From an uncultured Bacteroidales bacterium (GTDB taxonomy: Bacteria; Bacteroidota; Bacteroidia; Bacteroidales; F082): DNA of 64,000 nucleotides. The notes under the pieces were generated by a model, which was not told the origin of the DNA, ran no database searches, and worked only from the letters and a program-made list of their open reading frames with translations. The translations under genes and the position numbers were made by a program. The stretch spans positions 1 to 64,000 of the forward strand of contig CAMYYD010000003.1 in the NCBI GenBank assembly GCA_947303395.1. The letters are read 5' to 3'. Positions 21,694-44,062 of the stretch are shown in pieces. Position 1 is the first letter of the stretch. The number at the start of each line of letters is the position of its first letter.

Positions 21694-21876
21694 TTTCTCT
21701 CACAGATTTCACAGATAATCACAGATTTTTTATTTCATAATATCTTCCACAATTTCATTTAGTTCGCTAAAGCGAACAGATTCCACAGATTTTTCTGTGT
21801 AATTTCTCGCTTTAGCGAGTAAATAACCGTGAAAGAACTATCTGTGTTAATCAGTGTAATCTGTGTGAGATTTTGT
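21694..21876. repeat. Composite inverted element, CACAGATTT family, with inner AGTTCGCTAAAGCGAAC and CTCGCTTTAGCGAG palindromes
   Basis: CTCTCACAGATTTCACAGATAATCACAGATTTTT ... CTGTGTTAATCAGTGTAATCTGTGTGAGA. Confidence 0.9.
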
Positions 21877-35405: not shown

Positions 35406-35560
35406 TTTTAACATTAATTTATCGTTAATTATTCATTAATTCTTTTCTTTCCTGCCTTAACTTTCATGGAAAACTGATTGTGATAGATTAGTAATTAATG
35501 AAAAATTATATGGTCAATTAATGATAATTATATGTTTAATTCATTGGTAATTATATGTTT
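35406..35560. repeat. CATTAATT/CGTTAATT inverted array (about 10-nt period), copy 1
   Basis: TTTTTAACATTAATTTATCGTTAATTATTCATTAATT ... TAATTAATGAAAAATTATATGGTCAATTAATGATAATTATATG. Confidence 0.85.
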
Positions 35561-36966
35561 ATTTTTCTTGCTCTAATTCCGTAAATTGTTACTATTACGA
35601 AGCAAATCAATGGCAAAATATAGCTCACGTTGACTGCTGGATGACCGAGAATTGTGCCGCAGTCGATTATTAGGCCTTGGAGTGGTGGCATCAGGGCGCC
35701 ACCGACGATTGCCATTACGAGGAATGCCGCGCCGAGTGAGGCATCTTCAAGGCTGACTTTTTCCAATGCGGTACCGTAAATGGTCGGGAACATCAGGCTC
35801 ATGAAGAGACTGATTCCGACGAGGCAGTAGAGACCGGTTTTGCCGACAATTAATATTGCGCCAAGCGAACAAATCGCAGCACAGATTCCGAAAATGGTCA
35901 GGAGTTTTCGCCCGTCAACATATTTCATCAGGAAGGTGGAGATGAAACGACCGCAGAGGAAGAGGCACATCGCGATGATGTTGTAGTTTTGCGCTGTAGC
36001 TTTGTTAACTCCAAGATTATCAGCGTATTGGATGATGAAAGTCCAGACCATGATTTGAGCGGCGACGTAGAAAACTTGGGCGATGACGCCTTCGCAATAG
36101 ACGCGGTTCTTCCAAAGCCGTTCTACCGTGGTTTTAAACGAACACGGATTGCACGAATTTACACGAATCTGTTCTTCCGAAGACTTTTTCGAACACGGAT
36201 TGCACGGATTTGACGGATTTTTTTGGACCTTATTATCCGTTAGATCCGGTAAATCCGTGGTCGAAAAATAAGATTTCGCGGTTGGCACTTTTACGAGGGC
36301 GATGATTATCAGCATAATAATGACGACAATTCCTAGGGCGACGTATGGGTCACGAATTACTGCCAAGTCGTGGAGTCGGATATTCGCTTTTTCGGCTTCG
36401 GAGAGCATCGGGAAGATGATGTTTCCAGCCGCATCGCGCTTGTCGCTCAACAAGTTAGGAAGAACTACCATCGAGGCGACCGCCATTCCTGCCAGGGAGC
36501 CCATCGGGTTGAAAGCCTGGGCGAGGTTAAGACGACGAGTTGCGTTAGCACCACTGGTTGCTGAGCCTGTCGAAGCACCCAAAGACAGGATGAAAGGATT
36601 GGCGGTAGTTTCCAAAAATGCCAATCCAAAAGTCAGGATATACAGGCTAAAACAGAAAAACGTGAAGCTTTGTCGTGCTGCTGCGGGGATGAAAAGCAGT
36701 GCGCCGACGGCATAGAGAGCCAAGCCAAGGAGGATACCGCTTTTGTAGCTGTATTTTCTGATGAAAAGTGCTGCCGGAATTGCCATTGTGGCATAGCCTC
36801 CGTAGAATGCAAATTGAATCAGAGATGCTTTTGCTGCCGGGAGTTCCATTAAAGTCTGAAACGCCGCCACCATCGGATTGGTGATGTCATTGGCAAAACC
36901 CCACAAGGCGAAAAGAGTGGTTATCGCTATAAACGGAACAACATATTTTTTTTCTACTAAACGCAT
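35551..36966 (-). CDS. fucP: L-fucose:H+ symporter permease (FucP-like MFS)
   Basis: LWGFANDITNPMVAAFQTLMELPAAKASLIQFAFYGGYATMAIPAAL; FLETTANPFILSLG; ATRRLNLAQAFNPMGS. Confidence 0.9.
   Translation of the reverse strand: MRLVEKKYVVPFIAITTLFALWGFANDITNPMVAAFQTLMELPAAKASLIQFAFYGGYATMAIPAALFIRKYSYKSGILLGLALYAVGALLFIPAAARQSFTFFCFSLYILTFGLAFLETTANPFILSLGASTGSATSGANATRRLNLAQAFNPMGSLAGMAVASMVVLPNLLSDKRDAAGNIIFPMLSEAEKANIRLHDLAVIRDPYVALGIVVIIMLIIIALVKVPTAKSYFSTTDLPDLTDNKVQKNPSNPCNPCSKKSSEEQIRVNSCNPCSFKTTVERLWKNRVYCEGVIAQVFYVAAQIMVWTFIIQYADNLGVNKATAQNYNIIAMCLFLCGRFISTFLMKYVDGRKLLTIFGICAAICSLGAILIVGKTGLYCLVGISLFMSLMFPTIYGTALEKVSLEDASLGAAFLVMAIVGGALMPPLQGLIIDCGTILGHPAVNVSYILPLICFVIVTIYGIRARKINI
36136..36265 (-). 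repeat. 9-nt period ATCCGT/ACGGATT array, inverted, inside fucP
   Basis: CGAACACGGATTGCACGAATTTACACGAATCTG...CGAACACGGATTGCACGGATTTGACGGATTTTTTTGGACC...ATCCGTTAGATCCGGTAAATCCGTGGTCG; encodes STTDLPDLTDNKVQKNPSNPCNPCSKKSSEEQIRVNSCNPCSF. Confidence 0.92.
36556..36579 (-). repeat. Dispersed repeat GGTTGCTGAGCCTGTCGAAGCACC inside fucP
   Basis: Codes the extra GASTGSATSGAN before ATRRLNLAQAFNP; related GTCGAGCCTGTCGAAACATCTC at 24903-24924. Confidence 0.75.
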
Positions 36967-36979
36967 TTTTTTCTTTTTT

Positions 36980-37057
36980 CGACCACAGATTTCTCGGATT
37001 TGACGGATTTGTTCTTTCGTAGTTTTTTATCCGTTGGATCCGTTTAATCCGTGGTCA
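36980..37057. repeat. ATCCGT-family inverted array, intergenic
   Basis: GACCACAGATTTCTCGGATTTGACGGATTTG ... TATCCGTTGGATCCGTTTAATCCGTGGTC. Confidence 0.9.
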
Positions 37058-38268: not shown

Positions 38269-38340
38269 ACCACGGATTACTCGGATTTAACGGATTATTT
38301 CGTCCTTTTTATCCGTTTGATCCGTTAAATATGTGGTCAA
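38269..38340. repeat. ATCCGT-family inverted array immediately 3' of the GxxExxY gene
   Basis: ACCACGGATTACTCGGATTTAACGGATTATTTCGTCCTTTTTATCCGTTTGATCCGTTAAATATGTGGTC. Confidence 0.92.
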
Positions 38341-38341
38341 T

Positions 38342-38713
38342 TTATATAACTATCCTTTCTTTTTCCAGTTCTAAAGAACAACCAAAATTATATAGCAATC
38401 CAAGTTTATAACCCGTTGCACGGAGATAATTGTAAACCTGTGAACGATGTGCGTCGTCAAGATCACTGACAGCTTTCAATTCAACTATTATTTTATCGTA
38501 GCAAACAAAATCTGCTTTATATGTTTGCTTTAACACTACACCATCATAAATAATTTTTAATTCCTTTTCACGTTCATACGGAATGTTACGTTTTTTAAAT
38601 TCTATTTCAAGAGCCTCTTGATATACCGCTTCTAAGAATCCATGTCCAAGTGTATTGTAAACATGGAAAGCTGCTCCATTGATTTTATAACTTTGTTCAC
38701 TATATATTAACAT
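38342..38713 (-). CDS. GxxExxY protein (PD-(D/E)XK-like)
   Basis: HVYNTLGHGFLEAVYQEALEIEFKKRNIPYEREKEL; YKADFVCYDKIIVELKAV; QVYNYLRATGYKLGLLYNFG. Confidence 0.93.
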   Translation of the reverse strand: MLIYSEQSYKINGAAFHVYNTLGHGFLEAVYQEALEIEFKKRNIPYEREKELKIIYDGVVLKQTYKADFVCYDKIIVELKAVSDLDDAHRSQVYNYLRATGYKLGLLYNFGCSLELEKERIVI

Positions 38714-38743
38714 ATCCGTTTGATCCGTGCAATCCGTGGTCGT
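38714..38743. repeat. ATCCGT-family arm immediately 5' of the GxxExxY gene
   Basis: ATCCGTTTGATCCGTGCAATCCGTGGTCG; abuts the ATG on one side and the fcl stop on the other. Confidence 0.92.
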
Positions 38744-42887: not shown

Positions 42888-44062
42888 AAAACAATCGCCT
42901 CCTTTATCTTCTCCACGATATATTTCACGTCGTCATCCGTCACCCACGGACCGCTTGGCAGGCAGATGCCGTGTTTAAACATACTTTCGCTAACGCCGTT
43001 GGTGAATGCCGGAGCGTTTTTATAAACCGGCTGGAGGTGCATCGGTTTCCAGAGTGGACGGGCTTCGATGCCGGCTTTGTCAAGCTCAAGGCAGAAGGCT
43101 TCGGTGTCTAATTCTTTTTTGAAAAGGATTGTGGTGAGCCAGAAATTGCTATCGAAATCGCCATTCGGATTATCTTGAACTGAAATATCCGTTAAATCTG
43201 TGAAATCCGTGGTCGATAAAAATTCCCGATAAAGATTGTGAACGTGTTTGTGATGGTTGATATGATCTTTCAAAACCGTCATCTGACCGCGACCGATGCC
43301 TGCGGAGATGTTCGACATTCGGTAGTTGAAGCCGATGGTTTCGTGTTCGTAATGCAAAAATGGCTCTTTGGCTTGTGTTGCAAGGAAAATGGCACGCTTC
43401 TTGGTAGCCTCGTCTTTGCAAATTATTGCTCCACCGCCTGAAGTGGTGATCATCTTGTTGCCGTTGAACGAAAGCGTCGCGATATCGCCAAAAGTGCCGC
43501 AAGGCTTGCCTTTGTAATACGAGCCGAGTGCGTTGGCGGCGTCTTCAATAATCGGTATAGCGTATTTACGGCTGATGGCGGTTATTTCGTCCCATTTAGC
43601 TGGCATGCCGTAGAGGTCAACAACTATTATCGCTTTTGGCTTTTTGCCTGTTTTGGCCATCCTGTCGTTTATCGCATCTTCGAGAAGCTCCGGCGACATG
43701 TTCCAAGTCTCTTTTTCGCTATCGATAAATATCGGCGTTGCTCCGCAATATACAACTGGGTTTGAGCTTGCGCAGAAAGAAAATGATTGGCACAAAACCT
43801 CATCGTCTTTGCCAACGCCTAAAAGAAGCAATGCCAAATGGATTGCCGCGGTGCAAGATGAAACTGCTGCGACATAGACAGGAGATTTCTCCACTCCCTG
43901 CGGTCGGTCGAAATGACGGGCCAGTTCTTCCTCAAAAGCATCTACGTTGGGGCCGAGCGGTGCTACCCAGTTGGAGCTAAATGCTTCCTGGATGTAGCGT
44001 TGCTCAGTGCCAGTCGGCGACATTTTAGCGAGGCAGAGGTATATGCGGTGGTCAATATTCAT
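42884..44062 (-). CDS. DegT/DnrJ/EryC1/StrS aminotransferase
   Basis: LAKMSPTGTEQRYIQEAFSSNWVAPLGPNVDAFEEELA; SFCASSNPVVYCGATPIFIDSE; SFNGNKMITTSGGGAI; FNYRMSNISAGIGRGQ. Confidence 0.95.
   Translation of the reverse strand: MNIDHRIYLCLAKMSPTGTEQRYIQEAFSSNWVAPLGPNVDAFEEELARHFDRPQGVEKSPVYVAAVSSCTAAIHLALLLLGVGKDDEVLCQSFSFCASSNPVVYCGATPIFIDSEKETWNMSPELLEDAINDRMAKTGKKPKAIIVVDLYGMPAKWDEITAISRKYAIPIIEDAANALGSYYKGKPCGTFGDIATLSFNGNKMITTSGGGAIICKDEATKKRAIFLATQAKEPFLHYEHETIGFNYRMSNISAGIGRGQMTVLKDHINHHKHVHNLYREFLSTTDFTDLTDISVQDNPNGDFDSNFWLTTILFKKELDTEAFCLELDKAGIEARPLWKPMHLQPVYKNAPAFTNGVSESMFKHGICLPSGPWVTDDDVKYIVEKIKEAIVF
43180..43220 (-). repeat. ATCCGT-family 9-nt array inside the aminotransferase gene
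   Basis: ATATCCGTTAAATCTGTGAAATCCGTGGTCGATAAA encodes STTDFTDLTDIS; compare STTDLPDLTDN in FucP. Confidence 0.9.
43880..43919 (-). repeat. CATTCCG/GGAATCTCC-family arm inside the aminotransferase gene
   Basis: GGAGATTTCTCCACTCCCTGCGGTCGGTCGAAATGACGG encodes RHFDRPQGVEKSP. Confidence 0.82.

Follow-up and report, generated by a model that had tools for sequence, protein, structure and literature searches.

The DNA analyzed here (the window, 64,000 nt) is positions 1-64,000 of contig CAMYYD010000003.1 in assembly GCA_947303395.1, from an uncultured Bacteroidales bacterium (F082). It contains a fucP gene with a repeat array read in frame, a gene for a GxxExxY protein and further copies of the array:

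35551-36966, minus strand: fucP, L-fucose:H+ symporter of 471 aa with an in-frame insert (TIGR00885, 514 bits; 3o7q, E = 1.3e-58)
36143-36178, minus strand: older layer of the insert, the loop (GTCTTCGGAAGAACAG) and the right arm (CACGAAT units, ATTCGTGTAAATTCGTGCAATCCGTG) that remain from an ancestral hairpin
36189-36262, minus strand: younger layer of the insert, a CACGGAT hairpin (arms 36194-36218 and 36235-36258) over the old left arm
36980-37057, unstranded: CACGGAT hairpin at the junction of fucP and a fkp-like gene (arms within 36984-37053; DNA fold z = -5.4)
38269-38340, unstranded: CACGGAT hairpin directly 3' of the GxxExxY gene (arms within 38271-38335)
38342-38713, minus strand: GxxExxY protein, 123 aa, PD-(D/E)XK family (TIGR04256, PF13366/PDDEXK_3), the proposed driver of the repeats
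38714-38738, unstranded: array arm (ATCCGTTTGATCCGTGCAATCCGTG) adjoining the GxxExxY gene on its 5' side, in inverted orientation to the outer arm of the 38269-38340 hairpin
43187-43211, unstranded: single CACGGAT-type arm, 4.5 kb from the GxxExxY gene

Judged by its sequence, fucP is an intact gene for a true L-fucose symporter. The parts of the protein on both sides of the insert have dN/dS values of 0.06 and 0.05 against two relatives and are under strong purifying selection. Alignment with Escherichia coli FucP (3o7q) moves from residue 232 to 274 in the query and from 236 to 244 in the chain, which leaves ~34 extra residues between the two six-helix halves, in the TM6-TM7 loop. The AF2 model of FucP, built from four sequences, was uninformative (pLDDT 37), so the position of the loop rests on the 3o7q alignment. 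Residues ~229-276 are without counterpart in most orthologues: seven relatives with 59-77% identity overall have only a short loop at this place, and the alignment runs straight past it in orthologues L046-L052. These comparisons bear out the first-pass annotation, which had placed an in-frame array in the central loop between the six-helix halves of this MFS protein. It had expected ~40 residues absent elsewhere; the absence holds for most orthologues, and an older part of the insert is common to close relatives. No orthologue outside the array-bearing group was found with the peptide. A second repeat-derived in-frame insert in FucP, GASTGSATSG (36548-36582), contains the 16-mer GCTTCGACAGGCTCAG, which has four more one-mismatch copies in the genome; this insert is common to the window and the related locus L072 and absent from L106 and L085.

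The insert at 36143-36262 is an inverted array phased at 9 nt and read in frame. The spacing is a multiple of 3 and therefore gives the NPC/NPS and DLP/DLT peptide periodicity, as had been proposed. The insert had also been taken for one event, and it consists of two layers instead. On the plus strand, an old CACGAAT arm (~36143-36168) is followed by the CACGGAT hairpin. The older layer stems from an ancestral hairpin common to the window, L072 (CAMZJA010000002.1) and L106/G011, and the latter two have a CACGAAT-type hairpin at the place of the insert, with the peptide NHESHESSQIKK...QIRVNSYDSCS in L072. L085 carries a CACGAAT hairpin in the same loop. The window keeps the right arm and loop of this hairpin (GTCTTCGGAAGAACAGATTCGTGTAAATTCGTG), the outermost unit now being of the CACGGAT type, and the left arm is replaced by the CACGGAT hairpin. 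The CACGGAT hairpin was seen at this place in the window only, and its closest copies are found in L072, in the hairpins on either side of the GxxExxY gene.

The arrays are concentrated near the GxxExxY gene. The pattern ATCCGTNNNATCCGT with up to two mismatches has 30 matches in the window compared with 4.5 expected, and the largest count in 100 shuffles was 11. Genome-wide there are eight exact CACGGAT arrays and none for the reversed control pattern; seven of the eight lie at 36.2-38.7 kb, within 2.5 kb of the GxxExxY gene. Both non-coding hairpins that had been described as the same DNA as the insert are real, and they are similar to it rather than identical: the insert and the hairpin between fucP and the fkp-like gene share 80% identity. 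This junction hairpin is of the CACGAAT type in L072 and the CACGGAT type in the window. A CACAGAT-type inverted array pair with no gene between its arms, apparently a degenerate composite element, lies at 21702-21864.

A single GxxExxY gene was found in the genome, at 38342-38713; the first-pass annotation had overlooked that the hairpin at 38269-38340 and the arm at 38714-38738 flank it, and with this the likely source of the insert. The protein matches TIGR04256 (E = 1.1e-41, 141.9 bits, cut-off 35) and PF13366 (E = 5e-41, 140.2 bits, cut-off 22). Family alignment identifies G13, G23, E28, D68, E78, K80, Q92 and Y96 as invariant, among them the catalytic D and (D/E)xK of the PD-(D/E)XK superfamily (D68, E78 and K80). 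A PDB sequence search with the family profile gave weak matches only. The AF2 model is confident (pLDDT 96), and its best solved Foldseek match is SSO0001 (4ic1, E = 6.6e-5), which we take to be a Cas4 nuclease, followed by an Argonaute-associated Cas4-family protein, LHK-Exo and lambda exonuclease. The protein is thus predicted to have a Cas4/lambda-exonuclease-like fold. It is likely an active nuclease, because invariant catalytic residues coincide with a confident model that matches these enzymes. PADLOC gave no match for the GxxExxY protein, and a defense-system reading is therefore unsupported. Literature searches returned no account of arrays with GxxExxY genes and mention the family only in passing. 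In G011, the remnant of a decayed GxxExxY gene lies between CACAGAT arms (L180, 16920-17365), which suggests that arms can outlast the gene.

The survey of flanking arrays covered 118 distinct GxxExxY genes; Bacteroidota and a few other phyla are represented. Matching inverted arrays were present on both sides of 89 genes. The same arrangement appeared in 0/118 Markov-shuffled flanks, 5/236 control placements within the same loci and 1/233 FucP loci. Of the 29 genes that fail the two-arm criterion, some show decay, other motifs or incomplete flanks. Arrays number 11-13 per kb up to 100 bp from the gene and mostly 0-3 per kb beyond. The unit varies from gene to gene (CACGGAT, CACGAAT, CACAGAT, CACAGAA, CACAGAG, CGCTAAG, CACTAAT, ACAAAAC and others), unit spacing is mostly 9 nt (also 8 and 10-12), and the inverted arms are arranged in hairpins with outer ends GA(A/C)CAC. 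Since the gene is found with such repeats in many further bacteria, the two together look like small mobile elements of an undescribed family, and the FucP insert apparently comes from such a repeat-plus-nuclease element. FucP is not the only protein affected. A scan of 87 hairpins in the retrieved loci for coding cases identified in-frame hairpins in a galactokinase (L076, ~33 extra residues compared with 1pie), a sugar-phosphate nucleotidyltransferase (L104) and a Cap5F homologue (L036, ~13 extra residues).

The explanation that we favor, with confidence a little better than even, is that the insert is a gene-free copy of a selfish repeat-plus-nuclease element whose hairpins spread locally and persist in frame where a loop tolerates them. 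The full element would consist of two inverted arms with a GxxExxY nuclease gene between them, each arm having about three units (CAC-NNAN) spaced at 9 nt, and the gene-free copies would be compact hairpins of the same arms. The protein may recognize its own unit, possibly via its N-terminal helix, and cut or nick cognate arrays or their folded hairpins. Repair would then copy hairpins into nearby DNA and overwrite older hairpins with the current unit type. Copies would survive at gene junctions, and within genes only where length and frame allow, as in the cytoplasmic TM6-TM7 loop of FucP. Mobilization by the GxxExxY protein is putative and is the best-supported mechanism.

Structure and genomic position of the arrays bear on a different explanation, in which they are ordinary intergenic structures (terminator, mRNA-stabilizing or REP-like) spread by host recombination and GxxExxY genes are passengers in permissive junctions. 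The gmd-fcl-fkp-like-fucP-rhaM-like operon is syntenic in several genomes. Three of its junctions are gaps of 5-8 bp in G012, and the operon of G015 has neither GxxExxY-type arrays nor a GxxExxY gene. In the window, L072 and G011, several junctions contain arrays and a GxxExxY gene lies between fcl and fkp; a 40%-identical GxxExxY gene with CACAGAA arrays occupies the fcl/fkp junction of G005 too. The contrast between array-free and array-bearing junctions counts for the favored element. Arrays and gene at the junctions of one operon fit the passenger explanation, as do other repeat families and small genes in the same junctions; permissive sites explain part of the clustering, since the same junctions hold unrelated small genes with their own repeats. 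The hairpins also fold better as single strands than shuffled sequences (z = -3.0 to -5.4). Conservation of RNA stems as the main constraint was nevertheless rejected. Arm-to-arm spacer complementarity is 0.207 compared with 0.285 in shuffles, an effect that is confined to one spacer position and loses significance when the wider 4-nt inter-core stretch is taken (234/2000), so the spacers are not complementary beyond chance. Partner units are hardly better matched than non-partner units (0.849 versus 0.838). The arms match a common unit and not each other, which favors recognition of the unit by a protein over conservation of a stem. Rfam 15 had no family match at the arrays. Ordinary intergenic structures also do not account for inverted arms that bracket the gene in 89/118 cases, a unit type that changes with protein lineage or arrays in coding DNA, and we regard this explanation as unlikely.

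Unit type tracks the GxxExxY protein, consistent with the favored nuclease-driven element. On the protein tree there are 22 changes of unit type, compared with 45.4 for shuffled labels (0/200 as low). Joint descent of unit type and protein would follow from physical linkage alone. Of 165 arms 0.4-4 kb away, 71 match the unit of the local gene, compared with 34.2 in permutations (0/2000). The alignment columns most informative on the second variable base of the unit are residues 2, 5, 7, 8, 10 and 12, which lie on or beside the first helix of the AF2 model. Residue 12 is N or R in 28/39 genes with G at this base and in 1/46 with A, across several separate clades. An independent-pair test gave 4.5:0 for residue 12 (median p = 0.125; few independent contrasts and little power) and 5:0 for Thr at residue 8 (p = 0.06). 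These residues were picked from many columns after looking and are therefore a lead, not proof, for specificity.

Array load follows the gene. The 24 genomes of the genus with a GxxExxY gene have a mean of 5.4 (median 3.3) exact arrays per Mb and the 12 genomes without it a mean of 0.9 (median 0.65), a ~6-fold difference (p = 1.7e-4) that ignores kinship and includes the gene's own flanking arms in the counts. A reversed control pattern shows no difference between the two groups. This load bears on two further explanations. The FucP insert could have arisen by gene conversion or tandem expansion of the neighboring junction hairpins through host recombination alone, with no mobilizer. The copies are local, the older CACGAAT hairpin of the window looks overwritten by CACGGAT sequence, and tandem hairpin copies distinguish L072 from the window and L090 from L091, all as host recombination would have it. 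It leaves unexplained the arrival in the loop without prior homology, the in-frame copies in unrelated genes and the way array abundance follows gene presence, and we consider it very improbable. Equally hard to sustain is a role of the protein as a host nuclease acting on the arrays, either to process or to remove them (a counter-agent or structure-specific repair enzyme), with slippage or another mobile system behind their multiplication: the predicted Cas4/lambda-exonuclease-like fold and the small, stand-alone protein would suit such a role, but the presence of the gene goes with more arrays in a genome and not with fewer, each gene has its own array type directly on its flanks and the gene is patchily present at the same junction.

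The selfish repeat-plus-nuclease element resembles several known systems. REP/BIME sequences with RAYT (TnpA-REP, a Y1 HUH transposase) are short inverted repeats that flank a small nuclease gene and have many gene-free copies. Inverted repeats around a small nuclease gene and gene-free copies elsewhere are found here as well; the nuclease is PD-(D/E)XK (PDDEXK_3), not Y1/HUH. The one Y1 protein of the genome (C4:25636) has no GxxExxY-type arrays in its 3.3-kb locus. Membership in REP/RAYT was rejected on both counts. MITEs are likewise short and gene-free, have inverted ends and are presumed to rely on an autonomous relative. The inverted hairpin arms correspond to MITE terminal inverted repeats, with ends that are unit arrays, and a GxxExxY gene between the same arms would be the candidate parental element, although this proposed partner is not a known transposase. 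No transposition event and no target-site duplication was seen; among the loci compared, empty and filled sites were too divergent for the exact junctions to be read. The predicted fold and the catalytic residues, including QxxxY, are those of Cas4/lambda-exonuclease-type PD-(D/E)XK enzymes; the GxxExxY protein differs from Cas4 in being a stand-alone protein of 123 aa with no four-cysteine set among its invariant columns.

Rickettsia palindromic elements (RPEs) are mobile palindromes of ~150 bp, often located in frame within unrelated protein genes, and a review names no partner protein for them (PMC10969869). In-frame insertion at several unrelated loci (FucP, galactokinase, nucleotidyltransferase and Cap5F) is the same behavior. 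The present elements are set apart from RPEs by their design, with arms that are 9-nt-phased unit arrays changing with a linked nuclease gene, and they occur in Bacteroidota and a few other phyla. The best reading, by analogy, is that the element works like RPEs and REP/RAYT with a different nuclease. No mechanism for the movement of in-frame palindromes such as RPEs was found in the literature examined. Here, RPE-like behavior is accompanied by a candidate enzyme, by a recognition unit that changes and by residues predicted to set specificity, and the proposal is directly testable. It would give a function to the uncharacterized GxxExxY family and would help explain new loops of ~13-45 residues in conserved bacterial proteins.

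The FucP loop has also been filled independently by other repeat families. In G015 (L174) it holds GCCAATAGCCAACAG repeats and in G005 (L179) GGTCAAGCCCGCAATGAGGG repeats, both in frame, and the same repeats are present at the operon junctions of the respective genome. The loop is therefore a tolerant landing site and not the target of one element. A broader proposal, to which we give somewhat less than even weight, is that GxxExxY proteins could be the engines of undescribed, phylum-spanning minimal selfish elements. A single-domain Cas4-like nuclease would drive the copying of unit-array hairpins, the unit would shift through residues of the N-terminal helix, and TIGR02436 proteins (7-nt arrays) and small GIY-YIG proteins (own palindromes) would form parallel systems competing for junctions and loops.

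The latter two families were sampled only, and genes with their own repeats suggest such parallel systems. Four-helix-bundle (TIGR02436) genes are flanked by 7-nt arrays, for example (AAAGACT)n and (GTTTAGA)n, in L185, L187, L200 and L195, and two TIGR02436 genes occupy fucose-operon junctions of G003. Small GIY-YIG genes lie near TGTCATTTCGACC...GAGAAATC palindromes, GGAATGGAG hairpins or CCTGAGCCTGTCGAAGG repeats in L210, L219, L213 and L205. The gmd-fcl junction of L072 contains a TGTCATTTCGACCGAAG...CTCGAAATGACA palindrome (2767-2905) that is absent in the window.
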